This document shows, piece after piece, positions 1 to 64,000 of a DNA stretch of 64,000 nucleotides. This DNA comes from Lepidurus packardi (Eukaryota; Arthropoda; Branchiopoda; Notostraca; Triopsidae), in assembly GCA_023053545.1 (NCBI GenBank), contig JAKZAN010000072.1, positions 47,994 to 111,993 on the forward strand, written 5' to 3'. The notes beneath the pieces were generated by a model that saw nothing but the letters and a program-made list of their open reading frames with translations, ran no database searches and had not been told where the DNA came from. Made by a program: the position numbers and the translations under genes. Each line of letters opens with the position of its first letter. The first letter of the stretch is position 1.

Positions 1-480
1 TTACGGACTGAATTAATTCCTTACGGACTTAATTAATTCCTTACGTACTTAATTAATTCCTTACGGTCTGAATTAATTCCGTACGGATTTTATTACTTCC
101 TTACGGACTTAATTAATTCCTTACGAACTGAAATAATTCCTTACGGACTGAATTAATTCCTTACGGACTGAATTAATTCCTTACTGACTGAATTAATTCC
201 TTACGGACTGAATTAATTAATTTCGGACTGAATTAATTCCTTACTGACTGAATTAAATCCTTACGGACTGAATTAATTCCTTACGGACTGAATTAGTTCC
301 TTAAGGACTGAATTAATTCCTTACGGACTGAATTAATTCCTTACGGACTGAATTAATACCTTACGGACTGAATGAATTCCTTACGGATTGAATTAATTCC
401 TTGCTGACTGAATTAATTCCTTACGGACTGAATTAATTCCTTTCGGACTGAATTAATTCCTTACGGACTGAATTAATTCC
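1..480. repeat. Opening satellite block with truncated M1 module
   Basis: Positions 1-200 align with 461-660 at an offset of 460 bp, sharing the order of ACTT, GTACTT, GGTCTG and GTACGGATTTTATTACTTCC monomers (marker at 81). The copy is lost after about 210, where a monomer ending AATTAATTAA is followed by TTTCGGACTG. From there to 460 the monomers are close to consensus with scattered single changes. Nothing but satellite is present. Confidence 0.85.
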
Positions 481-1000
481 TTACGGACTTAATTAATTCC
501 TTACGTACTTAATTAATTCCTTACGGTCTGAATTAATTCCGTACGGATTTTATTACTTCCTTACGGACTTAATTAATTCCTTACGAACTGAATTAATTCC
601 TTACGGACTGAATTAATTCCTTACGGACTGAATTAATTCCTTACTGACTGAATTAATTCCTTACGGACTGAATTAATTCCTTACAGACTGAATTAATTCC
701 TTACGGACTGAATTAATTCCTTTCGGACTTAATTAATTCCTTACGTACTTTATTAATTCCTTACGGTCTGAATTAATTCCGTACGGATTTTATTAATTCC
801 TTACGGACTGAATTAATTCCGTACGGATTTTATTAATTCCTTACGGACTGAATAAATTCCTTACGAACTGAATTAATTCCGTACGGATTTTATTAATTCC
901 TTACGGACTGAATTTATTCATTACGGACTTAATTAATCCATTACAGACTGAATTATTTCCTTACGTATTGAAGTTATTCCTTACGGACTGAATTAATTCC
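481..1000. repeat. M1 module, long form (first complete copy)
   Basis: This is the first complete copy of a recurring module. It opens with an ACTT / GTACTT / GGTCTG / GTACGGATTTTATTACTTCC series (marker at 541) and closes with TTACGTATTGAAGTTATTCC at 961. Marker-to-marker distance is 420 bp (21 monomers), the long form. It includes the extra pair TTACGGACTGAATTAATTCC then GTACGGATTTTATTAATTCC at about 801-840, which is absent from the 380-bp form. Equivalent marker positions for later copies are 2612, 5464, 6164, 6904, 8656, 10994, 12746, 13766, 16124, 16884 and 18484; the marker at 81 belongs to a truncated copy. Confidence 0.88.
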
Positions 1001-1600
1001 TTACGGACTGAATTAATTCCTTACGGACTTAATTAATTCCTTACGTACTTAATTAATTCCTTACGGTCTGAATTAATTCCGTACGGATTTTATTAATTCC
1101 TTACGGACTGAATTAATTCCTTACGAACTGAATTAATTCCTTACGGACTGAATTAATTCTTTACGGACTGAATTAATTCCTTAAAGACTGAATTAATTCC
1201 TTATGGACTTAATTAGTTCCGTAAGGAATGAATTAATTAATTACGGACTGAAATAATTCCCTACGGACTGAATTAATTAATTACGGACTGAAATAATTCC
1301 TTACGGACTGTATTAATTCCTTACGGACTGAGTTAATTCCTTACGGACTGAATTAATTTCATACGGACTGAATTAATTCATTACGGACTTAATTAATCGA
1401 TTACGGACTGAATTAATTCCTTACGGACTGAATTAATTCCTTACTGACTGAATTAATTCCTTACGGACTGAATTAATTCCTTACGGACTGAATTAATTTC
1501 ATACGGACTGAATTAATTCCTTACGGACTTAATTAATCGATTACGGACTGAATTAATTCCTTACGGACTGAATTAATTCCTTACTGACTGAATTAATTCT
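1001..1600. repeat. M2 block and CGATTA-type monomers
   Basis: This satellite segment links M1 to the 19-bp TTAGGA monomer. It contains TTAAAGACTG and TTATGGACTT monomers followed by GTTCCGTAAGGAATG (TCCGTAAGGA core near 1219), then monomers ending AATTAATTAA, GAAATAATTCC monomers, a GAGTTAATTCC monomer, and TTAATTAATCGA monomers. The same order follows M1 in later copies, for example after 6904 and 10994, so this is part of a higher-order unit and not random drift. Confidence 0.85.
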
Positions 1601-1639
1601 TTAGGATTTATTGAATTCCTTTCTTACTGAATTAACTAC
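1601..1639. repeat. 39-bp divergent dimer marker, left-domain form
   Basis: Two adjacent strongly diverged monomers: a 19-bp one, TTAGGATTTATTGAATTCC, then a 20-bp one, TTTCTTACTGAATTAACTAC. The missing base shifts the 20-bp register, and the pair contains GAATTC, which the consensus monomer lacks. Further left-domain copies begin at 3532, 7944, 9716, 12034, 14846, 17924, 19524 and 22666. A closely related pair marks the right domain (TTAGGATTGATTGAATTCC and TTTCTTACTGTATTAATTCC), so the dimer predates the split of the two variant sets. Confidence 0.92.
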
Positions 1640-2550
1640 TTACGGACTGAATTAATTCCTTACGTACTTAATTAATTCCTTACGGTCTGAATTAATTCCG
1701 TACGGATTTTATTAATTCTTTACGGACTGAATTAATTCATTACGGACTTAATTAATCCATTTCGGACTGAATTATTTCTTTACGTACTGAAGTTATTCCT
1801 TACGGACTGAATTAATTACTTACGGACTGAATTATTTCCTTACATACTGAAATAATTCCTTACGGACTGAATTAATTCCTTACGGACTGAATTAGTTCCT
1901 TAATTAATTCCTTACGGACTGAATTAATTTCATACGGACTGAATTACTTCATTACGGACTTAATTAATCGATTACGGACTTAATTAATCCATTACAGACT
2001 GAATTAATTCCTTACGGACTGAATTAATTCCTTACTGACTGAATTAATTCCTTACGGACTTAATTAATTCCTTACAGACTGAATTAATTCCTTACGGACT
2101 GAATTAATTCCTTTCGGACTTAATTAATTCCTTACGTACTTTATTAATTCCTTACGGTCTGAATTAATTCCGTACGGATTTTATTAATTCCTTACGGACT
2201 GAATTAATTCCGTACGGATTTTATTAATTCCTTACGGACTGAATAAATTCCTTACGAACTGAATTAATTCCTTACGGACTGAATTAATTCTTTACGGACT
2301 GAATTAATTCCTTAAAGACTGAATTAATTCCTTATGGACTTAATTAGTTCCGTAAGGAATGAATTAATTAATTACGGACTAAAATAATTCCCTACGGACT
2401 GAATTAATTAATTACGGACTGAAATAATTCCTTACGAACTGAATTAATTCCTTACGGACTGAGTTAATTCCTTACGGACTGAATTAATTCCTTACGGACT
2501 GAATTAATTCCTTTCGGACTGAATTAATTCCTTACGGACTGAATTAATTC
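1640..2550. repeat. Satellite, segment between first and second M1 cycle
   Basis: This stretch is entirely satellite. It begins with the series that follows each 39-bp marker, including TTTCGGACTGAATTATTTC and a GTACTGAAGTTATT monomer. It holds a 12-bp truncated monomer near 1900 (two TTAATTAATTCC ends joined without the ACGGACTG part), then another M1-like series with TTTCGGACTT and GTACTTTATT monomers and a second M2 block (TCCGTAAGGA near 2349). Confidence 0.82.
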
Positions 2551-2551
2551 C

Positions 2552-4450
2552 TTACGGACTTAATTAATTCCTTACGTACTTAATTAATTCCTTACGGTCT
2601 GAATTAATTCCGTACGGATTTTATTACTTCCTTACGGACTTAATTAATTCCTTACGAACTGAATTAATTCCTTACGGACTGAATTAATTCCTTACGGACT
2701 GAATTAATTCCTTACTGACTGAATTAATTCCTTACGGACTGAATTAATTCCTTACAGACTGAATTAATTCCTTACGGACTGAATTAATTCCTTTCGGACT
2801 TAATTAATTCCTTACGTACTTTATTAATTCCTTACGGTCTGAATTAATTCCGTACGGATTTTATTAATTCCTTACGGACTGAATAAATTCCTTACGAACT
2901 GAATTAATTCCGTACGGATTTTATTAATTTCTTACGGACTGAATTTATTCATTACGGACTTAATTAATCCATTACAGACTGAATTATTTCCTTAGGTATT
3001 GAAGTTATTCCTTACGGACTGAATTAATTCCTTACGGACTTAATTAATTCCTTACGGACTTAATTAATTCCTTACGTACTTAATTAATTCCTTACGGTCT
3101 GAATTAATTCCGTACGGATTTTATTAATTCCTTACGGACTGAATTAATTCCTTACGAACTGAATTAATTCCTTACGGACTGAATTAATTAATTACGGACT
3201 GAAATAATTCCCTACGGACTGAATTAATTAATTACGGACTGAAATAATTCCTTACGGACTGAATTAATTCCTTACGGACTGAGTTAATTCCTTACGGGCT
3301 GAATTAATTCATTACGGACTTAATTAATCGATTACGGACTGAATTAATTCCTTACGGACTGAATTAATTCCTTACTGACTGAATTAATTCCTTACGGACT
3401 GAATTAATTCCTTACGGACTGAATTAATTTCATACGGACTGAATTAATTCCTTACGGACTTAATTAATCGATTACGGACTGAATTAATTCCTTACGGACT
3501 GAATTAATTCCTTACTGACTGAATTAATTCTTTAGGATTTATTGAATTCCTTTCTTACTGAATTAACTACTTACGGACTGAATTAATTCCTTACGTACTT
3601 AATTAATTCCTTACGGTCTGAATTAATTCCGTACGGATTTTATTAATTCCTTACGGACTGAATTAATTCATTACGGACTTAATTAATCCATTTCGGACTG
3701 AATTATTTCTTTTTCGTACTGAAGTTATTCCTTACGGACTGAATTAATTAATTACGGACTGAATTATTTCCTTACATACTGAAATAATTCCTTACGGACT
3801 GAATTAATTCCTTACGGACTGAATTAATTCCTTAATTAATTCCTTACGGACTGAATTAATTTCATACGGACTGAATTAATTCCGTACGGATTTTATTAAT
3901 TCCTTACGGACTGAATAAATTCCTTACGGACTGAATTAATTCATTACGGACTTAATTAATCGATTACGGACTGAATTAATTCCTTACGTACTTTATTAAT
4001 TCCTTACGGTCTGAATTAATTCCGTACGGATTTTATTAATTCCTTACGGACTGAATAAATTCCTTACGAACTGAATTAATTCCGTACGGATTTTATTAAT
4101 TCCTTACGGACTGAATTTATTCATTACGGACTTAATTAATCCATTACAGACTGAATTATTTCCTTACGTATTGAAGTTATTCCTTACGGACTGAATTAAT
4201 TCCTTACGGACTTAATTAATTCCTTACGTACTTAATTAATTCCTTACGGTCTGAATTAATTCCGTACGGATTTTATTAATTCCTTACGGACTGAATTTAT
4301 TCATTACGGACTTAATTAATCCATTACAGACTGAATTATTTCCTTACGTATTGAAGTTATTCCTTACGGACTGAATTAATTCCTTACGTACTGAAATAAT
4401 TCCTTACGGACTGAATTAATTCCTTACGGACTGAATTAATTCCTTTCGGA
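2552..4450. repeat. Second M1-M2-TTAGGA cycle, diverged copy of 481-2420
   Basis: Marker offsets against the first cycle are 2071 bp at the M1 marker (541 to 2612) and 1931 bp at the 39-bp marker (1601 to 3532). The difference reflects the short M1 form here (2612 to 2992 is 380 bp) and loss of about 100 bp of M2-flanking monomers. A private change turns the closing M1 monomer into TTAGGTATTGAAGTTATTCC at 2992. At about 3708 the monomer reads CTTTTTCGTACTG, one base longer than the first-cycle CTTTACGTACTG near 1779. That longer form recurs near 8110, 12200 and 18100. Confidence 0.78.
3532..3570. repeat. 39-bp divergent dimer, second left-domain copy
   Basis: TTAGGATTTATTGAATTCC followed by TTTCTTACTGAATTAACTAC, identical to the pair at 1601. 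Its position 1931 bp after the first copy gives the clearest offset for the first two cycles of the left domain. Confidence 0.9.
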
Positions 4451-5170
4451 CTTAATTAATTCCTTACGTACTTAATTAATTCCTTACGGTCTGAATTAAT
4501 TCCTTATGGACTTAATTAGTTCCGTAAGGAAGGAATTAATTAATTACGGACTGAAATAATTCCTTACGGACTGAATTAATTAATTACGGACTGAAATAAT
4601 TCCTTACGGACTGAATTAATTCCTTACGGACTGAGTTAATTCCTTACGGACTGAATTAATTTCATAGGGACTGAATTAATTCATTACGGACTTAATTAAT
4701 CGATTACGGACTGAATTAATTCCTTACGGACTGAATTAATTCATTACGGACTTAATTAAATCCTTACAGACTGAATTAATTCCTTGTGGACTTAATTAGT
4801 TCCGTAAGGAATGAATTAATTAATTACGGACTGAATTAATTCATTACGGACTTAATTAATCGATTACGGACTGAATTAATTCCTTACGGACTGAATTAAT
4901 TCCTTACTGACTGAATTAATTCCTTACGCACTGAATTAATTCCTTACGGACTGAATTAATTTCAAACGGACTGAATTAATTCATTACGGACTTAATTAAT
5001 CGATTACGGACTGAATTAATTCCTTACGGACTTAATTAAGTCCTTACGTACTTAATTAATTCCTTACGGTCTGAAATAATTCCGTTCGAATTTTATTAAT
5101 TCCTTACGGACTGAGATAATTCCTTACTGACTGAATTAATTCCTTACGGACTGAATTAATTCCTTACGGA
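4451..5170. repeat. Satellite, M2-rich mixed segment
   Basis: This holds two M2 blocks close together (TCCGTAAGGA near 4521 and 4801), monomers ending AATTAATCGA, a CGCACTG monomer, a TTTCAAACGG monomer and a GTTCGAATTTTATT monomer. The same ordered series reappears around 10040-10640, 15180-15750, 21790-22080 and 23000-23580, so this is an older member of a segment spread by later duplications. Only satellite is present. Confidence 0.8.
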
Positions 5171-7450
5171 CTGAATTAATTTCTTAAGGACTGAATTAAT
5201 TCCTTAATTCCTTAATTAATTCCTTACGGACTGAATTAATTTCATCCGGAATGAATTAATTAATTACGGACTGAAATAATTCCTTACGAACTGAATTAAT
5301 TCCTTACGGACTGAGTTAATTCCTTACGGACTGAATTAATTCCTTACGGACTGAATTAATTCCTTTCGGACTGAATTAATTCCTTACGGACTGAATTAAT
5401 TCCTTACGGACTTAATTAATTCCTTACGTACTTAATTAATTCCTTACGGTCTGAATTAATTCCGTACGGATTTTATTACTTCCTTACGGACTTAATTAAT
5501 TCCTTACGAACTGAATTAATTCCTTACGGACTGAATTAATTCCTTACGGACTGAATTAATTCCTTACTGACTGAATTAATTCCTTACGGACTGAATTAAT
5601 TCCTTACAGACTGAATTAATTCCTTACGGACTGAATTAATTCCTTTCGGACTTAATTAATTCCTTACGTACTTTATTAATTCCTTACGGTCTGAATTAAT
5701 TCCGTACGGATTTTATTAATTCCTTACGGACTGAATAAATTCCTTACGAACTGAATTAATTCCGTACGGATTTTATTAATTCCTTACGGACTGAATTTAT
5801 TCATTACGGACTTAATTAATCCATTACAGACTGAATTATTTCCTTACGTATTGAAGTTATTCCTTACGGACTGAATTAATTCCTTACGTACTGAAATAAT
5901 TCCTTACGGACTGAATTAATTCCTTACGGACTGAATTAATTCCTTACGGACTTAATTAATTCCTTTCGTACTTAATTAATTCCTTACGGTCTGAATTAAT
6001 TCCGTACGGACTTAATTAATTCCTTACGTACTTAATTAATTCCTTACGGACTGAATTAATTCCTTTCGGACTGAATTAATTCCTTACGGACTGAATTAAT
6101 TCCTTACGGACTTAATTAATTCCTTACGTACTTAATTAATTCCTTACGGTCTGAATTAATTCCGTACGGATTTTATTACTTCCTTACGGACTTAATTAAT
6201 TCCTTACGAACTGAATTAATTCCTTAAGGACTGAATTAATTCCTTACGGACTGAATTAATTCCTTACTGACTGAATTAATTCCTTACGGACTGAATTAAT
6301 TCCTTACAGACTGAATTAATTCCTTACGGACTGAATTAATTCCTTTCGGACTTAATTAATTCCTTACGTACTTTATTAATTCCTTACGGTCTGAATTAAT
6401 TCCGTACGGATTTTATTAATTCCTTACGGACTGAATAAATTCCTTACGAACTGAATTAATTCCGTACGGATTTTATTAATTCCTTACGGACTGAATTTAT
6501 TCATTACGGACTTAATTAATCCATTACAGACTGAATTATTTCCTTACGTATTGAAGTTATTCCTTACGGACTGAATTAATTCCTTACGTACTGAAATAAT
6601 TCCTTACGGACTGAATTAATTCCTTAAGGACTGAATTAATTCCTTAATTCCTTAATTAATTCCTTACGGACTGAATTAATTTCATCCGGAATGAATTAAT
6701 TAATTACGGACTGAAATAATTCCTTACGAACTGAATTAATTCCTTACGGACTGAGTTAATTCCTTACGGACTGAATTAATTCCTTACGGACTGAATTAAT
6801 TCCTTTCGGACTGAATTAATTCCTTACGGACTGAATTAATTCCTTACGGACTTAATTAATTCCTTACGTACTTAATTAATTCCTTACGGTCTGAATTAAT
6901 TCCGTACGGATTTTATTACTTCCTTACGGACTTAATTAATTCCTTACGAACTGAATTAATTCCTTACGGACTGAATTAATTCCTTACGGACTGAATTAAT
7001 TCCTTACTGACTGAATTAATTCCTTACGGACTGAATTAATTCCTTACAGACTGAATTAATTCCTTACGGACTGAATTAATTCCTTTCGGACTTAATTAAT
7101 TCCTTACGTACTTTATTAATTCCTTACGGTCTGAATTAATTCCGTACGGATTTTATTAATTCCTTACGGACTGAATAAATTCCTTACGAACTGAATTAAT
7201 TCCGTACGGATTTTATTAATTCCTTACGGACTGAATTTATTCATTACGGACTTAATTAATCCATTACAGACTGAATTATTTCCTTACGTATTGAAGTTAT
7301 TCCTTACGGACTGAATTAATTCCTTACGTACTGAAATAATTCCTTACGGACTGAATTAATTCCTTACGGACTGAATTAATTCCTTACGGACTTAATTAAT
7401 TCCTTTCGTACTTAATTAATTCCTTACGGTCTGAATTAATTCCGTACGGA
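5171..7450. repeat. 1440-bp tandem duplication with nested 700-bp repeat
   Basis: Sequence from about 5171 to 6000 reappears at 6611-7440 with an offset of exactly 1440 bp (72 monomers); rare markers TTCATCCGGAATG (5241 and 6681) and TTTCGTACTT (near 5962 and 7402) both match. Inside it, 5361-6000 also matches 6061-6700 at an offset of 700 bp (35 monomers), bringing M1 markers at 5464, 6164 and 6904. The identity ends near 6003/7443, where one copy has GTACGGACTT and the other GTACGGATTTT. Almost all variants are shared, which suggests recent duplication. Confidence 0.9.
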
Positions 7451-10400
7451 TTTTATTAATTCCTTACGGACTGAATTAATTCCTTACGAACTGAATTAAT
7501 TCCTTACGGACTGAATTAATTCATTACGGACTGAATTAATTCCTTAAAGACTGAATTAATTCCTTATGGACTTAATTAGTTCCGTAAGGAATGAATTAAT
7601 TAATTACGGACTGAAATAATTCCCTACGGACTGAATTAATTAATTACGGACTGAAATAATTCCTTACGGACTGAATTAATTCCTTACGGACTGAGTTAAT
7701 TCCTTACGGACTGAATTAATTCATTACGGACTTAATTAATCGATTACGGACTGAATTAATTCCTTACGGACTGAATTAATTCCTTACTGACAGAATTAAT
7801 TCCTTACGGACTGAATTAATTCCTTACGGACTGAATTAATTTCATACGGACTGAATTAATTCCTTACGGACTTAATTAATCGATTACGGACTGAATTAAT
7901 TCCTTACGGACTGAATTAATTCCTTACTGACTGAATTAATTCTTTAGGATTTATTGAATTCCTTTCTTACTGAATTAACTACTTACGGACTGAATTAATT
8001 CCTTACGTACTTAATTAATTCCTTACGGTCTGAATTAATTCCGTACGGATTTTATTAATTCCTTACGGACTGAATTAATTCATTACGGACTTAATTAATC
8101 CATTTCGGACTGAATTATTTCTTTTTCGTACTGAAGTTATTCCTTACGGACTGAATTAATTAATTACGGACTGAATTATTTCCTTACATACTGAAATAAT
8201 TCCTTACGGACTGAATTAATTCCTTACGGACTGAATTAATTCCTTAATTAATTCCTTACGGACTGAATTAATTTCATACGGACTGAATTAATTCCGTACG
8301 GATTTTATTAATTCCTTACGGACTGAATTAATTCATTACGGACTTAATTAATCGATTACGGACTGAATTAATTCCTTACGTACTTTATTAATTCCTTACG
8401 GTCTGAATTAATTCCGTACGGATTTTATTAATTCCTTACGGACTGAATAAATTCCTTACGAACTGAATTAATTCCGTACGGATTTTATTAATTCCTTACG
8501 GACTGAATTTATTCATTACGGACTTAATTAATCCATTACAGACTGAATTATTTCCTTACGTATTGAAGTTATTCCTTACGGACTGAATTAATTCCTTACG
8601 GACTTAATTAATTCCTTACGTACTTAATTAATTCCTTACGGTCTGAATTAATTCCGTACGGATTTTATTACTTCCTTACGGACTTAATTAATTCCTTACG
8701 AACTGAATTAATTCCTTACGGACTGAATTAATTCCTTACGGACTGAATTAATTCCTTACTGACTGAATTAATTCCTTACGGACTGAATTAATTCCTTACA
8801 GACTGAATTAATTCCTTACGGACTGAATTAATTCCTTTCGGACTTAATTAATTCCTTACGTACTTTATTAATTCCTTACGGTCTGAATTAATTCCGTACG
8901 GATTTTATTAATTCCTTACGGACTGAATTAATTCCGTACGGATTTTATTAATTCCTTACGGACTGAATAAATGCCTTACGAACTGAATTAATTCCGTACG
9001 GATTTTATTAATTCCTTACGGACTGAATTTATTCATTACGGACTTAATTAATCCATTACAGACTGAATTATTTCCTTACGTATTGAAGTTATTCCTTACG
9101 GACTGAATTAATTCCTTACGTACTGAAATAATTCCTTACGGACTGAATTAATTCCTTACGGACTTAATTAATTCCTTACGTACTTAATTAATTCCTTACG
9201 GTCTGAATTAATTCCGTACGGATTTTATTAATTCCTTACGGACTGAATTAATTCCTTACGAACTGAATTAATTCCTTACGGACTGAATTAATTCTTTACG
9301 GACTGAATTAATTCCTTAAAGACTGAATTAATTCCTTATGGACTTAATTAGTTCCGTAAGGAACGAATTAATTAATTACGGACTGAATTAATTCCTTACG
9401 GACTTAATTAATTCCTTACGGACTTAATTAATTCCTTACGTACTTAATTAATTCCTTACGGTCTGAATTAATTCCGTACGGATTTAATTAATTCCTTACG
9501 GACTGAATTAATTCCTTACGGACTGAATTAATTCATTATGGACTTAATTAATTCCGTAAGGAATGAATGAATTAATTACGGACTGAAATAATTCCTTACG
9601 GACTGAATTAATTCCTTATGAACTGAATTAATTCCTTACGGACTGAATTAATTCCTTACGGACTGAATTAATTCCTTACGGACTGAATTAGTTCCTTACA
9701 TACTGAATTAATTCTTTAGGATTTATTGAATTCCTTTCTTACTGAATTAACTACTTACGGACTGAATGAATTCCTTACGGACTGAATTAATTCCTTACGG
9801 AATTAATAATTCCTTACGGACTGAATTAATTCCTTACGAACTGAATTAATTCCTTACGGACTTAATTAATTCCTTACGTACTTAATTAATTCCTTACGGT
9901 CTGAATTAATTCCGTACGGATTTTATTAATTCCTTACGGACTGAATTAATTCCTTACGAACTGAATTAATTCCTTACGGACCGAATTAATTCATTACGGA
10001 CTTAATTAAATCCTTACAGACTGAATTAATTCCTTATGGACTTAATTAGTTCCGTAAGGAAGGAATTAATTAATTACGGACTGAAATAATTCCTTACGGA
10101 CTGAATTAATTAATTACGGACTGAAATAATTCCTTACGGACTGAATTAATTCCTTACGGACTGAGTTAATTCCTTACGGACTGAATTAATTTCATAGGGA
10201 CTGAATTAATTCATTACGGACTTAATTAATCGATTACGGACTGAATTAATTCCTTACGGACTGAATTAATTCATTACGGACTTAATTAAATCCTTACAGA
10301 CTGAATTAATTCCTTATGGACTTAATTAGTTCCGTAAGGAATGAATTAATTAATTACGGACTGAATTAATTCATTACGGACTTAATTAATCGATTACGGA

Positions 10401-10770
10401 CTGAATTAATTCCTTACGGACTGAAATAATTCCTTACTGACTGAATTAATTCCTTACGCACTGAATTAATTCCTTACGGACTGAATTAATTTCAAACGGA
10501 CTGAATTAATTCATTACGGACTTAATTAATCGATTACGGACTGAATTAATTCCTTACGGACTTAATTAAGTCCTTACGTACTTAATTAATTCCTTATGGT
10601 CTGAATTAATTCCGTTCGAATTTTATTAATTCCTTACGGACTGAGATAATTCCTTACTGACTGAATTAATTCCTTACGGACTGAATTAATTCCTTACGGA
10701 CTGAATTAATTTCTTAAGGACTGAATTAATTCCTTAATTCCTTAATTAATTCCTTACGGACTGAATTAAT
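6681..10770. repeat. Left-domain super-unit, copy I (4090 bp)
   Basis: Super-units are counted from the rare TTCATCCGGAATG monomer. Copy I holds, in order, a short-form M1 (6904), M2 (near 7581), the 39-bp marker (7944), a long-form M1 (8656), M2-type blocks (near 9354 and 9554), a second 39-bp marker (9716) and a mixed M2-rich segment (10040-10640). M1 to first 39-bp marker is exactly 1040 bp. A private ATGCC monomer (near 8972) and the CGTAAGGAACGAATT form of M2 (near 9356) allow unambiguous alignment to copy II at an offset of 4090, changing to 4110 after about 9160. Confidence 0.88.
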
Positions 10771-15900: not shown

Positions 15901-16110
15901 TTCATCCGGAATGAATTAATTAATTACGGACTGAAATAATTCCTTACGAACTGAATTAATTCCTTACGGACTGAGTTAATTCCTTACGGACTGAATTAAT
16001 TCCTTACGGACTGAATTAATTCCTTTCGGACTGAATTAATTCCTTACGGACTGAATTAATTCCTTACGGACTTAATTAATTCCTTACGTACTTAATTAAT
16101 TCCTTACGGT

Positions 16111-24000: not shown

Positions 24001-24130
24001 TTCCTTACGGACTGAATTAATTCATTACGGACTTAATTAATCGATTACGGACTGAATTAATTCCTTACGGACTGAATTAATTCCTTACTGACTGAATTAA
24101 TTCCTTACGCACTGAATTAATTTCTTACGG

Positions 24131-50985: not shown

Positions 50986-53900
50986 TTAATTCCTTACGGA
51001 TTTAATTAATTCTTTACGGATTTAATTAATTCCTTACGGATTTCATTAATTCTTTACGGACTGAATTAATTCCTTACGGACTGATTAATTCATTACGGAC
51101 TGAATTAATTCCTTACGGACTGAACAAATTCCTTACGGACTTAATTAATTCCTTACGGACTGAACAAATTCCTTACGGACTTAATAAATTCCTTACAAAC
51201 TGAACAAATTACTTACGGACTGAATTAATTCTTTACGGACTGAATTAATTCATTACGGACTTAATTAATTCCTTACGGACTTAATTAATTCCTTACGGAC
51301 TGAATTAATTCTTTAGGATTGATTGAATTCCTTTCCTACTGAATTAATTCCTTACGGACTGAACAAATTCCTTACGGAATTAATTAATTCCTTACGGACT
51401 TAATTAATTCTTTACGGACTGAATTAATTCCTTACGGATTGAATTAATTCTTTACGGACTTAATTAATTCCTTACGGACTTAATAAATTCCTTACGGACT
51501 GAATTAATTCCTTACGGACTGAATTAATTCTTTACGGACTGAATTAATTCTTTACGGACTGAATTAATTCATTACGGACTTAATTAATTCCTTACGGACT
51601 TAATTAATTCTTTACGGACTGAATTAATTCCTTACGGACTTAATTAATTCCTTACGGACTGACTTAATTCTTTAGGATTGATTGAATTCCTTTCTTACTG
51701 TATTAATTCCTTACGGACTGAATTAATTCCATACGGATTTAATTAATTCCTTACGGACTTAATTAATTCCTTACGGACTGAACAAATTCCCTACGGACTT
51801 AATTAATTCCTTACGGATTTAATTAATTCTTTACGGATTTAATTAATTCCTTACGGACTGAATTAATTCCTTACGGACTGAATTAATTCCTTACGGACTG
51901 AATTAATTTATTACGGACTGAATTAATCCCTTACGGACTTAATTAATTCCTTACGGACTGAACAAATTCCTTACGGACTTAATTAATTCCTTACGGACTG
52001 AATTAATTCTTTAGGATTGATTGAATTCCTTTCTTACTGAATTAATTCCTTATGGACTGAATTAATTCTTTAGGATTGATTGAATTCCTTTCTTACTGAA
52101 TTAATTCCTTATGGACTGAATTAATTCCTTACGGATTTAATTAATTCCTTACGGACTTAATTAATTCGTTGCGGACTGAATTAATTCCTTACGGACTGAA
52201 TTAATTCCTTACGGACTGAATTAATTCCTAACGGACTGAAGTAATTCATTACAGACTGAATTAATTCCTTACGGACTTAAATAATTCCTTACGGACTTAA
52301 TTAATTCATTACGGACTTAATTAATTCGTTGCGGACTGAATTAATTCCTTACGGACTTAAATAATTCCTTACGGACATAATTAATTCATTACGGACTGAA
52401 TTAATCCCTTACGGACTTAATTAATTCTTTACGGACTGAATTAATTCCTTGCGGATTGAATTAATTCTTTACGGACTTAATTAATTCCTTACGGACTGAA
52501 TTAAATCCTTAGGACTGATTGAATTCCTTTCTTACTGAATTAATTCCTTACGGACTGAATTAATTCCTTACGGATTTAATTAATTCCTTACGGACTTAAT
52601 TAATTCCTTACGGACTGAACAAATTCCTTACGGACTTAATTAATTCCTTACGGACTTAATTAATTCTTTACGGACTGAATTAATTCCTTACGGATTGAAT
52701 TAATTCTTTACGGACTTAATTAATTCCTTACGGACTTAATAAATTCCTTACGGACTGAATTAATTCCTTACGGACTGAATTAATTCTTTACGGACTTATT
52801 TAATTCCTTACGGATTGAATTAATTATTTACGGACTTAATTAATTCCTTACGGACTGAATTAATTCTTTAGGATTGATTGAATTCTTTTCTTACTGTATT
52901 TATTCCTTACGGACTGAATTAATTCCTTACGGATTTAATTAATTCCTTACGGACTTAATTAATTCCTTACGGACTGAACAAATTCCTTACGGACTTAATT
53001 AATTCCTTACGGATTTTATTAATTCTTTACGGACTGAATTATTTCCTTACGGACTGAATTAATTCCTTAGGATTGATTGAATTCCTTTCTTACTGAATTA
53101 ATTCCTTACGGACTGAATTAATTCCTAACGGATTTAATTAATTCCTTACGGACTTAATTAATTCCTTACGGACTGAATTAATTCTTTACGGACTTAATTA
53201 ATTCCTTACGGACTGAACAAATTCCTTACGGACTTAATTAATTCCTTACGGACTTAATTAATTCTTTACGGACTGAATTAATTCCTTACGGACTTAATTA
53301 ATTCCTTACGGACTGAACAAATTCCTTACGGACTTAATTAATTCCTTACGGACTGAACAAATTCCTTACGGACTTAATAAATTCCTTACAAACTGAACAA
53401 ATTACTTACGGACTGAATTAATTCTTTACGGACTGAATTAATTCATTACGGACTTAATTAATTCCTTACGGACTGAATTAATTCTTTAGGATTGATTGAA
53501 TTAGTTTCCTACTGAATTAATTCCTTACGGACTGAATTAATTCCTTACGGATTTAATTAATTCCTTACGGACTTAATTAATTCCTTACGGACTGAACAAA
53601 TTCCTTACGGACGTAATTAATTTTTTACGGACTGAATTAATTCCTTACGGACTTAATTAATTCTTTACGGACTGAATTAATTCCTTACGGACTGAATTAA
53701 TTCCTTAGGATTGATTGAATTCCTTTCTTACTGAATTAATTCCTTACGGACTGAATTAGTTCCTTACGGATTTAATTAATTCTTTACGGACTTAATTAAT
53801 TCCTTACGGACTGAACAAATTCCTTACGGACTTAATTAATTCCTTACGGACTTAATTAATTCTTTACGGACTTAATTAATTCCTTACGGACTTAATTAAT

Positions 53901-55150
53901 TCTTTACGGACTGAATTAATTCCTTACGGATTGAATTAATTCTTTACGTAATTAATTAATTCCTTACGGACTTTATAAATTCCTTACGGACTGAATTAAT
54001 TCTTTACGGACTTAATTAATTCCTTACGGACTGAACAAATTCCTTACGGACTTAATTAATTCTTTACGGACTTAATTAATTCCTTACGGACTGACTTAAT
54101 TCTTTAGGATTGATTGAATTCCTTTCTTACTGTATTAATTCCTTACGGACTGAATTAATTCCATACGGATTTAATTAATTCCTTACGGACTTAATTAATT
54201 CCTTACGGACTGAACAAATTCCTTACGGACTTAATTAATTCCTTACGGATTTAATTAATTCTTTACGGACTTAATTAATTCCTTACGGACTTAATAAATT
54301 CCTTAAGGACTGAATTAATTCCTTGCGGACTGAATTAATTCTTTACGGAATGAATTAATTCATTACGGACTAAATTAATTCCTTACGGACTGAACAAATT
54401 CCTTACGGACTTAATAAATTCCTTACAAACTGAACAAATTACTTACGGACTGAATTAATTCTTTACGGACTGAATTAATTCATTACGGACTTAATTAATT
54501 CCTTACGGACTTAATTAATTCCTTACGGACTGAATTAATTCTTTAGGATTGATTGAATTCCTTTCCTACTGAATTAATTCCTTCCGGACTGAATTAATTC
54601 CTTACGGATTTAATTAATTCCTTACGGACTTAATTAATTTCTTACGGACTGAACAAATTCCTTGCGGACTTAATTAATTCCTTACGGACTGAACAAATTC
54701 TTTACGGACTTAATTAATAACTTACGGACTTAATTAATTCTTTACGGACTGAACAAATTCCTTACGGACTTAATTAATTCTTTATGATTGATTGAATTTC
54801 TTTCTCACTGAATTAATTCCTTATGGACTGAATTAATTACTTACGGATTTAATTAATTTATTACGGACTGAATTAATCCCTTACGGGCTTAATTAATTCC
54901 TTACGGACTGAACAAATTCCTTACGGACTTAATTAATTCCTTACGGATTTAATTAATTCTTTACGGACTTAATTAATTCCTTACGGATTTAATTAATTCT
55001 TTACGGACTTAATTAATTCCTTACGGACTTAATAAATTCCTTAAGGACTGAATTAATTCCTTACGGACTGAATTAATTCTTTACGGACTGAATTAAGTCA
55101 TTACGGACTGAATTAATTCCTTACGGACTGAACAAATTCCTTACGGACTT
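50985..55150. repeat. 4.15-kb unit, copy 1 (4167-bp offset)
   Basis: First copy of a large tandem duplication. Shared rare markers with copy 2 include GGATTTCATTAATT (51038 and 55205), the short monomer ACTGATTAATT (51080 and 55247), CCTAACGGACTGAAGTAATT (52227 and 56394), TTAGGACTGATTG (52509 and 56676), GAATTAGTTTCCTACTG (53499 and 57646), ACGTAATTAATTAATT (near 53946) and TTTCTCACTG (54801 and 58948). A private change here is TTTATGATTG at 54781 where copy 2 has TTTAGGATTG. Within it, the dimer marker is itself doubled near 52008-52090. Confidence 0.92.
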
Positions 55151-58100
55151 AATTAATTCCTTACGGATTTAATTAATTCTTTACGGATTTAATTAATTCC
55201 TTACGGATTTCATTAATTCTTTACGGACTGAATTAATTCCTTACGGACTGATTAATTCATTACGGACTGAATTAATTCCTTACGGACTGAACAAATTCCT
55301 TACGGACTTAATTAATTCCTTACGGACTGAACAAATTCCTTACGGACTTAATAAATTCCTTACAAACTGAACAAATTACTTACGGACTGAATTAATTCTT
55401 TACGGACTGAATTAATTCATTACGGACTTAATTAATTCCTTACGGACTTAATTAATTCCTTACGGACTGAATTAATTCTTTAGGATTGATTGAATTCCTT
55501 TCCTACTGAATTAATTCCTTACGGACTGAACAAATTCCTTACGGAATTAATTAATTCCTTACGGACTTAATTAATTCTTTACGGACTGAATTAATTCCTT
55601 ACGGATTGAATTAATTCTTTACGGACTTAATTAATTCCTTACGGACTTAATAAATTCCTTACGGACTGAATTAATTCCTTACGGACTGAATTAATTCTTT
55701 ACGGACTGAATTAATTCTTTACGGACTGAATTAATTCATTACGGACTTAATTAATTCCTTACGGACTTAATTAATTCTTTACGGACTGAATTAATTCCTT
55801 ACGGACTTAATTAATTCCTTACGGACTGACTTAATTCTTTAGGATTGATTGAATTCCTTTCTTACTGTATTAATTCCTTACGGACTGAATTAATTCCATA
55901 CGGATTTAATTAATTCCTTACGGATTTAATTAATTCCTTACGGACTGAACAAATTCCCTACGGACTTAATTAATTCCTTACGGATTTAATTAATTCTTTA
56001 CGGATTTAATTAATTCCTTACGGACTGAATTAATTCCTTACGGACTGAATTAATTCCTTACGGACTGAATTAATTTATTACGGACTGAATTAATCCCTTA
56101 CGGACTTAATTAATTCCTTACGGACTGAACAAATTCCTTACGGACTTAATTAATTCCTTACGGACTGAATTAATTCTTTAGGATTGATTGAATTCCTTTC
56201 TTACTGAATTAATTCCTTATGGACTGAATTAATTCTTTAGGATTGATTGAATTCCTTTCTTACTGAATTAATTCCTTATGGACTGAATTAATTCCTTACG
56301 GATTTAATTAATTCCTTACGGACTTAATTAATTCGTTGCGGACTGAATTAATTCCTTACGGACTGAATTAATTCCTTACGGACTGAATTAATTCCTAACG
56401 GACTGAAGTAATTCATTACAGACTGAATTAATTCCTTACGGACTTAAATAATTCCTTACGGACTTAATTAATTCATTACGGACTTAATTAATTCGTTGCG
56501 GACTGAATTAATTCCTTACGGACTTAAATAATTCCTTACGGACATAATTAATTCATTACGGACTGAATTAATCCCTTACGGACTTAATTAATTCTTTACG
56601 GACTGAATTAATTCCTTGCGGATTGAATTAATTCTTTACGGACTTAATTAATTCCTTACGGACTGAATTAAATCCTTAGGACTGATTGAATTCCTTTCTT
56701 ACTGAATTAATTCCTTACGGACTGAATTAATTCCTTACGGATTTAATTAATTCCTTACGGACTTAATTAATTCCTTACGGACTGAACAAATTCCTTACGG
56801 ACTTAATTAATTCCTTACGGACTTAATTAATTCTTTACGGACTGAATTAATTCCTTACGGATTGAATTAATTCTTTACGGACTTAATTAATTCCTTACGG
56901 ACTTAATAAATTCCTTACGGACTGAATTAATTCCTTACGGACTGAATTAATTCTTTACGGACTTATTTAATTCCTTACGGATTGAATTAATTATTTACGG
57001 ACTTAATTAATTCCTTACGGACTGAATTAATTCTTTAGGATTGATTGAATTCTTTTCTTACTGTATTTATTCCTTACGGACTGAATTAATTCCTTACGGA
57101 TTTAATTAATTCCTTACGGACTGAACAAATTCCTTACGGACTTAATTAATTCCTTACGGATTTTATTAATTCTTTACGGACTGAATTATTTCCTTACGGA
57201 CTGAATTAATTCCTTAGGATTGATTGAATTCCTTTCTTACTGAATTAATTCCTTACGGACTGAATTAATTCCTAACGGATTTAATTAATTCCTTACGGAC
57301 TTAATTAATTCCTTACGGACTGAATTAATTCTTTACGGACTTAATTAATTCCTTACGGACTGAACAAATTCCTTACGGACTTAATTAATTCCTTACGGAC
57401 TTAATTAATTCTTTACGGACTGAATTAATTCCTTACGGACTTAATTAATTCCTTACGGACTGAACAAATTCCTTACGGACTTAATTAATTCCTTACGGAC
57501 TGAACAAATTCCTTACGGACTTAATAAATTCCTTACAAACTGAACAAATTACTTACGGACTGAATTAATTCTTTACGGACTGAATTAATTCATTACGGAC
57601 TTAATTAATTCCTTACGGACTGAATTAATTCTTTAGGATTGATTGAATTAGTTTCCTACTGAATTAATTCCTTACGGACTGAATTAATTCCTTACGGATT
57701 TAATTAATTCCTTACGGACTTAATTAATTCCTTACGGACTGAACAAATTCCTTACGGACGTAATTAATTTTTTACGGACTGAATTAATTCCTTACGGACT
57801 TAATTAATTCTTTACGGACTGAATTAATTCCTTACGGACTGAATTAATTCCTTAGGATTGATTGAATTCCTTTCTTACTGAATTAATTCCTTACGGACTG
57901 AATTAGTTCCTTACGGATTTAATTAATTCTTTACGGACTTAATTAATTCCTTACGGACTGAACAAATTCCTTACGGACTTAATTAATTCCTTACGGACTT
58001 AATTAATTCTTTATGGACTTAATTAATTCCTTACGGACTTAATTAATTCTTTACGGACTGAATTAATTCCTTACGGATTGAATTAATTCTTTACGTAATT

Positions 58101-59320
58101 AATTAATTCCTTACGGACTTTATAAATTCCTTACGGACTGAATTAATTCTTTACGGACTTAATTAATTCCTTACGGACTGAACAAATTCCTTACGGACTT
58201 AATTAATTCTTTACGGACTTAATTAATTCCTTACGGACTGACTTAATTCTTTAGGATTGATTGAATTCCTTTCTTACTGTATTAATTCCTTACGGACTGA
58301 ATTAATTCCATACGGATTTAATTAATTCCTTACGGACTTAATTAATTCCTTACGGACTGAACAAATTCCTTACGGACTTAATTAATTCCTTACGGATTTA
58401 ATTAATTCTTTACGGACTTAATTAATTCCTTACGGACTTAATAAATTCCTTAAGGACTGAATTAATTCCTTGCGGACTGAATTAATTCTTTACGGAATGA
58501 ATTAATTCATTACGGACTAAATTAATTCCTTACGGACTGAACAAATTCCTTACGGACTTAATAAATTCCTTACAAACTGAACAAATTACTTACGGACTGA
58601 ATTAATTCTTTACGGACTGAATTAATTCATTACGGACTTAATTAATTCCTTACGGACTTAATTAATTCCTTACGGACTGAATTAATTCTTTAGGATTGAT
58701 TGAATTCCTTTCCTACTGAATTAATTCCTTCCGGACTGAATTAATTCCTTACGGATTTAATTAATTCCTTACGGACTTAATTAATTTCTTACGGACTGAA
58801 CAAATTCCTTGCGGACTTAATTAATTCCTTACGGACTGAACAAATTCTTTACGGACTTAATTAATAACTTACGGACTTAATTAATTCTTTACGGACTGAA
58901 CAAATTCCTTACGGACTTAATTAATTCTTTAGGATTGATTGAATTTCTTTCTCACTGAATTAATTCCTTATGGACTGAATTAATTACTTACGGATTTAAT
59001 TAATTTATTACGGACTGAATTAATCCCTTACGGGCTTAATTAATTCCTTACGGACTGAACAAATTCCTTACGGACTTAATTAATTCCTTACGGATTTAAT
59101 TAATTCTTTACGGACTTAATTAATTCCTTACGGATTTAATTAATTCTTTACGGACTTAATTAATTCCTTACGGACTTAATAAATTCCTTAAGGACTGAAT
59201 TAATTCCTTACGGACTGAATTAATTCTTTACGGACTGAATTAAGTCATTACGGACTGAATTAATTCCTTACGGACTGAACAAATTCCTTACGGACTTAAT
59301 TAATTCCTTACGGACTGAAC
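55151..59320. repeat. 4.15-kb unit, copy 2 (4147-bp offset after deletion)
   Basis: Second copy of the large unit. Offset to copy 1 is 4167 until about 57110, where one monomer (GGACTTAATTAATTCCTTAC) is missing, and 4147 after that. Observed differences from copy 1 are few: that missing monomer, TTATGGACTT near 58011 where copy 1 has TTACGGACTT (a C-to-T change at the CpG), and GGATTT near 55922 where the older cassette has GGACTT. This low divergence over more than 4 kb points to a recent event. Confidence 0.92.
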
Positions 59321-59816
59321 AAATTCCTTACGGACTTAATAAATTCCTTACAAACTGAACAAATTACTTACGGACTGAATTAATTCTTTACGGACTGAAT
59401 TAATTCATTACGGAATAAATTAATTCCTTACGGACTGAACAAATTCCTTAAGGACTTAATAAATTCCTTACAAACTGAACAAATTACTTACGGACTGAAT
59501 TAATTCTTTACGGACTGAATTAATTCATTACGGACTTAATTAATTCCTTACGGACTTAATTAATTCCTTACGGACTGAATTAATTCTTTAGGATTGATTG
59601 AATTCCTTTCCTACTGAATTAATTCCTTCCGGACTGAATTAATTCCTTACGGATTTAATTAATTCCTTACGGACTTAATTAATTTCTTACGGACTGAACA
59701 AATTCCTTGCGGACTTAATTAATTCCTTACGGACTGAACAAATTCTTTACGGACTTAATTAATAACTTACGGACTTAATTAATTCTTTACGGACTGAACA
59801 AATTCCTTACGGACTT
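58490..59816. repeat. 898-bp partial duplication at the end of the 4.15-kb unit
   Basis: About 58490-58918 is repeated at 59388-59816. The CCTTCCGGACTG monomer lies at 58729 and 59627, the AATAACTTACGG and TTACAAACTG monomers follow the same offset of 898, and the TTTCTTACGGACTGAACAAATT pair is shared. The copies diverge at about 59815, where a CCTTACGGACTGAATT monomer is added before TTAGGATTG. Between the two lies a private ACGGAATAAATT monomer (59411) and TTAAGGACTTAATAAATT (59448), both of which recur near 63700-63730. Confidence 0.85.
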
Positions 59817-61480
59817 AATTAATTCCTTACGGACTGAATTAATTCTTTAGGATTGATTGAATTTCTTTCTTACTGAATTAATTCCTTATGGACTGAATTA
59901 ATTCCTTACGGATTTAATTAATTACTTACGGACTTAATTAATTCCTTGCGGACTGAATTAATTCCTTGCGGATTTAATTAATTCTTTACGGACTTAATTA
60001 ATTCCTTACGGATTTAATTTATTCTTTACGGACTTAATTAATTCCTTACGGACTTAATAAATTCCTTAAGGACTGAATTAATTCCTTACGGACTGAATTA
60101 ATTCTTTACGGACTGAATTAAGTCATTACGGACTGAATTAATTCCTTACAAACTGAACAAATTACTTACGGACTGAATTAATTCTTTATGGACTGAATTA
60201 ATTCATTACGGACTGAATTAATTCTTTACGGACTTATTTAATTCCTTACGGATTGAATTATTTATTTACGGACTTAATTAATTCCTTACGGACTGAATTA
60301 ATTCTTTAGGATTGATTGAATTCTTTTCTTACTGTATTAATTCCTTACGGACTGAATTAATTCCTTACGGATTTAATTAATTCCTTACGGACTGAACAAA
60401 TTCCTTACGGACTTAATAAATTCCTTACAAACTGAACAAATTACTTACGGACTGAATTAATTCTTTACGGACTGAATTAATTCATTACGGACTTAATTAA
60501 TTCCTTACGGACTTAATTAATTCCTTACGGACTGAATTAATTCTTTAGGATTGATTGAATTCCTTTCCTACTGAATTAATTCCTTACGGACTGAATTAAT
60601 TCCTTACGGATTTAATTAATTCCTTACGGACTGAACAAATTCCTTACGGACTTAATTAATTCCTTACGGATTTTATTAATTCTTTACGGACTGAATTATT
60701 TCCTTACGGACTGAATTAATTCCTTAGGATTGATTGAATTCCTTTCTTACTGAATTAATTCCTTACGGACTGAATTAATTCCTAACGGATTTAATTAATT
60801 CCTTACGGACTTAATTAATTCCTTACGGACTGAATTAATTCTTTACGGACTTAATTAATTCCTTACGGACTGAACAAATTCCTTACGGACTTAATTAATT
60901 CCTTACGGACTTAATTAATTCTTTACGGACTGAATTAATTCCTTACGGACTTAATTAATTCCTTACGGACTGAACAAATTCCTTACGGACTTAATTAATT
61001 CCTTACGGACTGAACAAATTCCTTACGGACTTAATTAATTCCTTACGGACTGAACAAATTCCTTACGGACTTAATTAATTCCTTACGGACTGAACAAATT
61101 CCTTACGGACTTAATAAATTCCTTACAAACTGAACAAATTACTTACGGACTGAATTAATTCTTTACGGACTGAATTAATTCATTACGGACTTAATTAATT
61201 CCTTACGGACTGAATTAATTCTTTAGGATTGATTGAATTAGTTTCCTACTGAATTAATTCCTTACGGACTGAATTAATTCCTTACGGATTTAATTAATTC
61301 CTTACGGACTTAATTAATTCCTTAAGGACTGACCAAATTCCTTACGGACGTAATTAATTTTTTACGGACTGAATTAATTCCTTACGGACTTAATTAATTC
61401 TTTACGGACTGAATTAATTCCTTACGGACTGAATTAATTCCTTAGGATTGATTGAATTCCTTTCTTACTGAATTAATTCC
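59817..61480. repeat. Satellite with third copy of part of the 4.15-kb unit
   Basis: From about 60580 the sequence follows 57060-57890 of the 4.15-kb unit. GGATTTTATTAATTCTTTACGG is at about 60668 (57158 in copy 2, offset 3510) and GAATTAGTTTCCTACTG near 61236 (offset 3590). The extra 80 bp comes from four instead of two repeats of a 40-bp dimer. A private ACTGACCAAATT monomer lies near 61329. The first part, 59817-60580, is a mixture including TTATTTACGG and CCTTGCGG monomers. Confidence 0.83.
60961..61120. repeat. 40-bp dimer repeated four times
   Basis: The pair CCTTACGGACTGAACAAATT then CCTTACGGACTTAATTAATT is present four times in a row (the last partner has AATAAATT). The equivalent place in the two 4.15-kb copies (near 53301 and 57461) has two repeats. 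This is a small copy-number change at the dimer level. Confidence 0.92.
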
Positions 61481-62660
61481 TTACGGACTGAATTAATTCC
61501 TTACGGATTTAATTAATTCTTTACGGACTTAATTAATTCCTTACGGACTTAATTAATTCTTTACGGACTGAATTAATTCCTTACGGATTGAATTAATTCT
61601 TTACGGACTGAATTAATTCCTAACGGATTTAATTAATTCCTTACGGACTTAATTAATTCCTTACGGACTGAATTAATTCCTTACGGATTTAATTAATTCC
61701 TTACGGACTGAACAAATTCCTTACGGACTGAATTAATTCCTTACGGATTTAATTAATTCTTTACGGACTTAATTAATTCCTTACGGACTTAATTAATTCT
61801 TTACGGACTGAATTAATTCCTTACGGATTGAATTAATTCTTTACGGACTGAATTAATTCCTAACGGATTTAATTAATTCCTTACGGACTGAACAAATTCC
61901 TTACGGACTGAATTAATTCCTTACGGATTTAATTAATTCTTTACGGACTTAATTAATTCCTTACGGACTTAATTAATTCTTTACGGACTGAATTAATTCC
62001 TTACGGATTGAATTAATTCTTTACGGACTGAATTAATTCCTAACGGATTTAATTAATTCCTTACGGACTTAATTAATTCCTTACGGACTGAATTAATTCT
62101 TTACGGACTTAATTAATTCCTTACGGACTGAACAAATTCCTTACGGACTTAATTAATTCCTTACGGACTTAATTAATTCTTTACGGACTGAATTAATTCC
62201 TTACGGACTTAATTAATTCCTTACGGACTGAACAAATTCCTTACGGACTTAATTAATTCCTTACGGACTGAACAAATTCCTTACGGACTTAATAAATTCC
62301 TTACAAACTGAACAAATTACTTACGGACTGAATTAATTCTTTACGGACTGAATTAATTCATTACGGACTTAATTAATTCCTTACGGACTGAATTAATTCT
62401 TTAGGATTGATTGAATTAGTTTCCTACTGAATTAATTCCTTACGGACTGAATTAATTCCTTACGGATTTAATTAATTCCTTACGGACTTAATTAATTCCT
62501 TACGGACTGAACAAATTCCTTACGGACGTAATTAATTTTTTACGGACTGAATTAATTCCTTACGGACTTAATTAATTCTTTACGGACTGAATTAATTCCT
62601 TACGGACTGAATTAATTCCTTAGGATTGATTGAATTCCTTTCTTACTGAATTAATTCCTT
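61238..62660. repeat. 1178-bp tandem repeat of the GAATTAGTTTCC segment
   Basis: GAATTAGTTTCCTACTG at 61236 recurs at 62414 (offset 1178), and the ACGTAATTAATTTTTTACGG monomer that follows recurs near 61347 and 62525. Its 5' part matches 57646-57900 and 53499-53755. The change TTAAGGACTGACCAAATT near 61322 is private to the first copy. A further copy of the ACGTAATTAATTTTTT monomer lies near 62965. Confidence 0.85.
61560..62060. repeat. 240/180-bp local amplification (three copies)
   Basis: A block containing GGATTGAATTAATTCTTTAC, ACTGAATTAATTCC and TAACGGATTTAATTAATTCC recurs with TAACGG at 61621, 61861 and 62041 (spacings 240 and 180 bp). The 60-bp difference is three monomers present in the first interval and missing from the second. 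The block is found here in serial copies only, so the amplification is local and probably recent. Confidence 0.9.
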
Positions 62661-64000
62661 ACGGACTGAATTAGTTCCTTACGGATTTAATTAATTCTTT
62701 ACGGACTTAATTAATTCCTTACGGACTGAACAAATTCCTTACGGACTTAATTAATTCCTTACGGACTTAATTAATTCTTTACGGACTTAATTAATTCCTT
62801 ACGGACTTAATTAATTCTTTACGGACTGAATTAATTCCTTACGGATTGAATTAATTCTTTACGTAATTAATTAATTCCTTACGGACTTTATAAATTCCTT
62901 ACGGATTTAATTAATTCCTTACGGACTTAATTAATTCCTTACGGACTGAACAAATTCCTTACGGACGTAATTAATTTTTTACGGACTGAATTAATTCCTT
63001 ACGGACTTAATTAATTCTTTACGGACTGAATTAATTCCTTACGGACTGAATTAATTCCTTAGGATTGATTGAATTCCTTTCTTACTGAATTAATTCCTTA
63101 CGGACTGAATTAATTCCTTACGGATTTAATTAATTCTTTACGGACTTAATTAATTCCTTACGGACTTAATTAATTCTTTACGGACTGAACAAATTCCTTA
63201 CGGACTTAATTAATTCTTTAGGATTGATTGAATTTCTTTCTCACTGAATTAATTCCTTATGGACTGAATTAATTACTTACGGATTTAATTAATTTATTAC
63301 GGACTGAATTAATCCCTTACGGGCTTAATTAATTCCTTACGGACTGAACAAATTCCTTACGGACTTAATTAATTCCTTACGGATTTAATTAATTCTTTAC
63401 GGACTTAATTAATTCCTTACGGATTTAATTAATTCTTTACGGACTTAATTAATTCCTTACGGACTTAATAAATTCCTTAAGGACTGAATTAATTCCTTAC
63501 GGACTGAATTAATTCTTTACGGACTGAATTAAGTCATTACGGACTGAATTAATTCCTTACGGACTGAACAAATTCCTTACGGACTTAATTAATTCCTTAC
63601 GGACTGAACAAATTCCTTACGGACTTAATAAATTCCTTACAAACTGAACAAATTACTTACGGACTGAATTAATTTTTTTTCGGACTGAATTAATTCATTA
63701 CGGAATAAATTAATTCCTTACGGACTGAACAAATTCCTTAAGGACTTAATAAATTCCTTACAAACTGAACAAATTACTTACGGACTGAATTAATTCTTTA
63801 CGGACTGAATTATTTCATTACGGACTTAATTAATTCCTTACGGACTTAATTAATTCCTTACGGACTGAATTAATTCTTTAGGATTGATTGAATTCCTTTC
63901 CTACTGAATTAATTCCTTCCGGACTGAATTAATTCCTTACGGATTTAATTAATTCCTTACGGACTTAATTAATTTCTTACGGACTGAACAAATTCCTTGC
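62661..64000. repeat. Partial copy of the end of the 4.15-kb unit, open at the window edge
   Basis: From about 63170 the sequence follows 58880-59710: TTTCTCACTG at 63237 (58948, offset 4289), CCGGACTG at 63919 (59629, offset 4290). The one-base increase lies at about 63673, where the usual AATTCTTTACGG reads as a run of eight T before CGG. A segment at 62661-62900 follows 57903-58150 (GAATTAGTTCC, ACGTAATTAATTAATT, ACTTTATAAATT). A private ATTATTTCATTACGG occurs at 63810. The array continues beyond 64000. Confidence 0.86.

Follow-up and report, generated by a model that had tools for sequence, protein, structure and literature searches.

What kind of sequence repeats a single 20-bp unit over tens of kilobases, and which part of a chromosome could it represent? 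The window, i.e. the whole stretch of 64,000 bases analysed here (63,900 called bases and 100 N), corresponds to positions 47,994-111,993 of the contig C61, which ends where the window ends. Satellite DNA is expected to form long head-to-tail arrays of one unit, to reach a high genomic copy number and to be locally homogenised in a concerted way. We examined the window and the rest of the assembly with respect to these three properties, and then to the possible chromosomal location of the repeat.

The window is composed of a 20-bp satellite

Tandem Repeats Finder described a period-20 array over positions 1-63,998, with 3,208 head-to-tail copies and 84% matches. Cyclic alignment to the monomer TTACGGACTGAATTAATTCC gave 91.5% identity across the called bases of the window, the insertions amounting to 5 bases and the deletions to 269. 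Such identity across 3,208 monomers rules out chance or simple sequence as the origin of the array. The exact monomer was found in 554 copies on the forward strand and in none on the reverse strand, and no open reading frame of at least 100 amino acids was found in the window. When identity was scanned in 100-bp windows with a step of 20 bases, the poorest of those clear of the N run, at 22,601 and 22,621, reached 83%; therefore, there is no insert. Outside the gap, the window is thus a 20-bp satellite in a single orientation, without gene, transposon or unique insert, as stated in the original prediction. The latter also held both ends of the array to be open. This is true of the low end, where the same satellite runs on into C61:27,994-47,993, but not of the high end, which is the end of the contig.

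The most variable position of the monomer is position 10 (G in 62% and T in 37%), followed by positions 20, 8 and 14. Only 243 distinct monomers are present among the 3,208 of the window, and the variants therefore recur, as block duplication predicts.

Two different sub-arrays meet at an assembly gap

The array had been described as single and uninterrupted, which does not agree with the comparison of the sequences on the two sides of the N run (Table 1). These have no 3-monomer word in common, with 360 distinct words on the left and 515 on the right, and share nine 2-monomer words. Several variants are private to one side: all 68 window copies of GTACGGATTTTATTAATTCC lie to the left of the gap, and all 159 copies of TTACGGACTGAACAAATTCC and all 66 copies of the 19-bp variant TTAGGATTGATTGAATTCC lie to the right. 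Similarly, 2.5-3.8% of the 40-mers are common to both sides, a level also seen when each side is compared with the arrays on the scaffolds C1 and C2; within a side, the corresponding values are 67% for the two left halves and 41-50% for the two right halves. The left side is continuous with the sequence upstream of the window, since window positions 1-12,000 contain 65% of the distinct 40-mers present in C61:37,994-47,993. Judged by these words, the window is best read as two different sub-arrays joined over an assembly gap and not as one array. Given the lack of common 3-monomer words and the low sharing of 40-mers, the join is a statement of the scaffolding and not of the sequence; for users of the assembly, it should be marked as unreliable.

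Table 1. Sub-arrays, assembly gap and longest listed repeated block of the window
Feature	Position	Strand	Description
Left sub-array of the 20-bp satellite	1..24130	+	Private variants, e.g. GTACGGATTTTATTAATTCC; extends upstream into C61:27,994-47,993
100 N, gap at which two different sub-arrays were joined in the assembly	24131..24230		No 3-monomer word common across the gap
Right sub-array of the 20-bp satellite	24231..64000	+	Private variants TTACGGACTGAACAAATTCC and 19-bp TTAGGATTGATTGAATTCC; ends with contig C61
Right array, longest of the listed near-identical blocks, first copy	30403..33501	+	Ungapped self-BLAST, 3,099 bp, 99.7%
Right array, longest of the listed near-identical blocks, second copy	34967..38065	+	Ungapped self-BLAST

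The sub-arrays are probably homogenised by kilobase blocks

Block matches were defined by ungapped self-BLAST as segments of at least 1 kb with at least 98% identity. At least 69% of the right array lies inside segments that match another place in the same array (40 self-matches listed, the longest pair of which is given in Table 1), and at least 13% of the left array is covered in the same way (two listed). No such match between the left and right arrays is found among those listed. Together with the small number of distinct monomers, these kilobase blocks reveal a concerted local homogenisation.

On the other hand, a fixed higher-order repeat, similar to that of alpha satellite, was looked for and rejected. 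Indeed, sequence identity declines steadily with the lag, from 0.83 at 20 bp to 0.48 at 400 bp, and no lag up to 600 monomers stands out in the autocorrelation of monomer types. At 205 and 229 monomers, the lags that score highest, monomer-type identity is 0.20 and 0.17 versus 0.07-0.08 by chance. The duplicated blocks are of many lengths and do not constitute a fixed multi-monomer tandem unit. We infer that local unequal exchange, or replication-based duplication of kilobase blocks, is the main process by which the arrays expand and become homogenised. Such a process would render neighbouring stretches nearly identical, while distant arrays would keep only the basic 20-bp unit in common.

The satellite is abundant and placed at scaffold ends

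The assembly comprises 108,557,554 bases in 344 contigs, a total that includes contigs of other organisms. The exact monomer occurs in it 86,918 times (48,863 forward and 38,055 reverse), versus 0 for the reversed control. Taken together with the near-identical blocks of the right array, this high copy number on the two strands bears out the original prediction of a large, homogenised satellite of short period, and it speaks against the objection, raised along with that prediction, of a minor locus expanded by assembly error. Extrapolation from the density in the window (554 copies per 63.9 kb) gives about 10 Mb of satellite, with a range of 5.6-16 Mb obtained from five nearly pure 10-kb loci carrying 53-154 exact copies each. 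Part of the unplaced sequence of the assembly consists of this satellite.

Among the six chromosome-size scaffolds, C1-C6, of 10.7-14.0 Mb each, the satellite is located at one end of each of C1-C4. On C1, the first exact monomer is found at 91 kb from the end of the scaffold, directly outside a run of N; as this run is inside the block, the link to C1 depends on scaffolding. C2 and C4 begin with the 20-bp satellite, and on C3 a second satellite precedes it. A 3-monomer tag (100 of 11,009 sites listed, as far as C4:21 kb) occurs on C1 only in the end block. Among the 100 matches listed for this tag, C2 is hit only at 3-22 kb and 165 kb, and C3 is not hit. Direct reading of C2 showed the satellite up to 30 kb and found none at 40 kb or in five samples beyond, up to 600 kb. 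Similarly, none was found in four samples of C3 from 20 to 200 kb. On C4, the satellite is present, in both orientations, in four of the six samples of 1 kb read between 50 and 541 kb. The ends read of C5 and C6 do not carry it, C6 beginning with the second satellite, and three longer satellite tags have no site on either scaffold among the matches listed.

The second, AT-rich satellite has an 11/45-bp base (TTGAAATTTCC type) and recurs in the vicinity of the 20-bp one. It occupies C61:1-10,000, with the 20-bp satellite present by 18,884, and adjoins the latter at C3:8.3 kb. It also has sites at C4:519-525 kb, the 20-bp satellite being present at C4:510 kb, and forms the beginning of C100, which carries the 20-bp satellite at 93-107 kb. 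Retroelements are the other neighbours: on C3 the 20-bp array is followed, without N, by a T run and then by a reverse-transcriptase frame, and the block of C1 is broken by a reverse-transcriptase frame and a BEL/Pao-type frame and switches strand. In view of these interruptions and strand switches on other scaffolds, the purity of the window is only local, and it cannot be extended to the satellite family as a rule.

To which chromosome could the window belong? The tag of the left array has 410 sites, and the 100 listed fall on C4 (8), C30 (16) and C36 (76). The tag of the right array has 102 sites, of which the 100 listed fall on C4 (25), C36 (1), C40 (1), C48 (11), C54 (24), C61 itself (16), C79 (8), C106 (5), C110 (3) and C310 (6). 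Among these matches, listed in contig order and past C6, none of either tag is on C1, C2, C3, C5 or C6, so C4 is the only one of the six large scaffolds to carry both. Furthermore, of the 40-mers in a 1-kb sample taken at C4:150 kb, 55% are also present in the final 20 kb of the window. The left array shares 28% of 40-mers with C4:50 kb versus 27% with the unplaced contig C70. By sequence likeness, C61 is likely to belong to the block of C4, though C5 or C6 could also be its source, as their satellite ends may be missing from the assembly. The window would then contain two sub-arrays, probably both derived from the C4 block and set side by side by scaffolding.

A probable pericentromeric satellite and a possible centromere core

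With moderate confidence, we favour a pericentromeric location. The 20-bp repeat, a short-period and locally homogenised satellite, probably makes up much of the pericentromeric heterochromatin of an animal with a small genome, most likely an arthropod. It probably acts as non-coding constitutive heterochromatin placed beside, and perhaps under, the kinetochore, and each scaffold may represent a telocentric chromosome or one arm.

A stronger form of this explanation, and not its opposite, is that the repeat constitutes the centromere core itself: putative CENP-A nucleosomes would occupy it where telocentric or acrocentric chromosomes end, in the manner reported for a 20-bp repeat of Astragalus sinicus. 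It is a possible, though rather doubtful, reading. The repeat is the most abundant tandem repeat that we met and sits at one end of four of the six large scaffolds, and the published accounts offer, as precedents, CENH3 on units of 20-28 bp in plants and on 5- and 10-bp repeats in Drosophila. However, no host CENP-A gene was found among the 150 of 221 histone candidates that were scored, with frames read regardless of introns, and the divergent H3 that was found belongs to ciliate-like contigs. The monomer does not display the 10-bp periodicity of A/T dinucleotides that would favour nucleosome phasing, since its harmonic of 0.36 is reached by 41% of 20,000 shuffled monomers. Moreover, the core could instead be formed by the second satellite or by the islands of retroelements.

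Two further candidates were rejected. The 10-bp palindrome GAATTAATTC of the monomer was considered as a functional dyad, but 4.0% of shuffled monomers equal it; it is present in 1,229 copies in some 3,208 monomers, and positions 10 and 14 are among the most variable. A histone gene of C283, called CENP-A-like by inspection, was dismissed as a host gene, as its in-frame TAG/TAA codons and the (CCCCAA)n contig starts indicate a ciliate. Among solved structures, those of H3/CENP-A chimeras match it best, with ordinary H3 only just behind.

It seems rather unlikely, albeit conceivable, that a kinetochore is built at telocentric ends on this repeat with its array-specific variant sets, which would make it an animal counterpart of the Astragalus repeat, block-homogenised like a miniature alpha satellite. 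If the repeat did carry CENP-A, an animal centromere could run on a unit far shorter than a nucleosome, with array-specific variants.

Less probable readings: chromosome tips and assembly errors

The satellite-bearing scaffold ends could also be chromosome tips, with a subtelomeric satellite just inside the telomere. This is rather improbable, even though the satellite does sit at scaffold ends and C86 carries, along with the satellite, a TTAGG run of some 350 bp. Indeed, C3, the only large scaffold that terminates in (TTAGG)n, does so over about 65 bp preceded by another minisatellite, and its 20-bp satellite is at the opposite end. The terminal 1 kb of C2, C3 and C4 is free of the 20-bp satellite, and no 3-monomer tag is located near that end of C3 among the matches listed. 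On C86, where the satellite was found at the start, at 70 kb and at 90-109 kb, the TTAGG run lies between satellite stretches and continues into ordinary DNA, not to a contig end. Hence, on neither C3 nor C86 does the satellite adjoin (TTAGG)n. The location of TTAGG opposite to the satellite on C3 therefore favours the pericentromeric over the subtelomeric position, although it concerns one scaffold and a short run, and the argument is weakened by interstitial TTAGG, found as 25-bp words inside C1 and C3-C6 (104 in all, 100 listed). If the chromosomes are telocentric, the two readings would merge.

It is very improbable that the copy number was inflated by misassembly or that the repeat comes from a co-sequenced organism: it is true that two unrelated sub-arrays are joined across 100 N in the window and that the assembly contains ciliate-like contigs and stop-free COX1 genes of bacterial look, but the satellite is present on four chromosome-size scaffolds, passes without N through the T run into the reverse-transcriptase frame on C3, forms sub-arrays that differ in sequence and so are not copies of one locus, and is absent from the first kb of all five sampled contig starts with (CCCCAA)n.

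Relation to known satellites

The repeat is real, abundant and of short period, and is apparently an undescribed satellite of an ordinary kind. The original prediction had not recognised the monomer from any named satellite; six 16-mers of the monomer and its T variant had no match in a string search of 5.39 million open-access papers. The monomer has no occurrence in viral or in prokaryote contigs either, which says little about animals. The short period, considered unusual at the outset, is indeed uncommon, yet it has plant precedents in Astragalus sinicus (20 bp) and Chionographis (23/28 bp), as far as the published descriptions go.

Tek et al. in 2011 reportedly described a 20-bp centromeric tandem repeat of Astragalus sinicus associated with CENH3. 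The likeness lies in a 20-bp tandem unit, linked there with centromeres; the host, on the other hand, is a plant, the CENH3 association is reported there, and the two repeats are likened by unit length and not by sequence. Primate alpha satellite, with its unit of about 171 bp, has sets of variants specific to each array and, inside an array, blocks that are nearly identical. Both traits are found in the 20-bp satellite, which differs in its unit length and by the absence of a fixed higher-order period.

Chionographis japonica possesses two satellites, Chio1 and Chio2, of 23 and 28 bp, which are described as CENH3-enriched by ChIP (PMC10264360). They resemble the 20-bp satellite in their short unit, great abundance, megabase-scale amount and variant families, and differ in unit length, in the holocentric plant host and in the CENH3 enrichment observed there (PMC10264360). 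In Drosophila melanogaster, centromeric repeats of 5 and 10 bp are described, for which a 10-bp rotational phasing was proposed (PMC5844345). These are also short AT-rich units of an arthropod, but they are 2-4 times shorter, and the 10-bp phasing is unsupported for the 20-bp monomer. According to a review, satellite units are usually of nucleosome length or of 5-10 bp (PMC8122249), and the 20-bp unit is situated between these two sizes.

As to the other contents of the assembly, ciliate-like and bacteria-like contigs are mixed into it. An arthropod host, perhaps a branchiopod crustacean, would agree with the termination of C3 in (TTAGG)n and with a nuclear copy of COX1, both of which suggest an arthropod. 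In this COX1 copy TGA reads as Trp, and it contains no stop under table 14 and one stop under tables 4 and 5.

Probable foreign DNA, nuclear COX1 copies and histone clusters in the assembly

The L. packardi assembly seems, from sequence features, to include macronuclear chromosomes of a ciliate cohabiting with the host, since five of 13 small contigs sampled begin with (CCCCAA)n, which we take to be a ciliate-type telomere, and since a histone H3-like gene on contig C283 has an open reading frame only when TAA and TAG are read as Gln. Bacteria in the sample are probably the source of three COX1 genes free of internal stops, whose contigs have G+C contents of 41% (C52), 66% (C214) and 41% (C43). 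Mitochondrial COX1 copies or fragments are numerous in the nuclear scaffolds C1, C2, C4, C5 and C6, several of them lying within the first 1.6 Mb of C4 and C2. Histone genes occur in tandem clusters on different scaffolds, with units of about 4.4 to 7.1 kb.

Telomere-type and satellite repeats

Since the GGTTTCGGGAAGAGCAAG-type minisatellite lies directly inward of the TTAGG run at the end of C3, and its reverse complement follows 5,000 N at the C5 start, its position in these sequences makes it a candidate subtelomeric repeat. An interstitial (TTAGG)n run of about 350 bp is located within non-satellite DNA of contig C86, which also carries the 20-bp satellite at the contig start and at 70 kb, in opposite orientations. 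A third satellite, AT-rich and with a unit of about 92 bp (AAACGAAATTTCGACATTTGAAG...), is present on C20.

Location of the features in contigs (C) and excerpts read from them (L)
Feature	Location	Excerpt
(CCCCAA)n at contig start	C120	L072
(CCCCAA)n at contig start	C150	L073
(CCCCAA)n at contig start	C220	L075
(CCCCAA)n at contig start	C260	L076
(CCCCAA)n at contig start	C300	L077
H3-like gene	C283	L059:28-504
Stop-free COX1 genes	C52:160321-161757; C214:60865-62079; C43:162713-164005	L009-L011
Nuclear COX1 copy or fragment (example)	C6:697216-698424	
Histone cluster	C2:2.56-2.60 Mb	
Histone cluster	C3:1.31-1.34 Mb	
Histone cluster	C3:2.26-2.28 Mb	
Histone cluster	C9	
GGTTTCGGGAAGAGCAAG-type minisatellite	C3 end	L034
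GGTTTCGGGAAGAGCAAG-type minisatellite, reverse complement	C5 start	L023:5002-5804
Interstitial (TTAGG)n	C86:58,115-58,450	L082
Third satellite	C20:1-10000	L028
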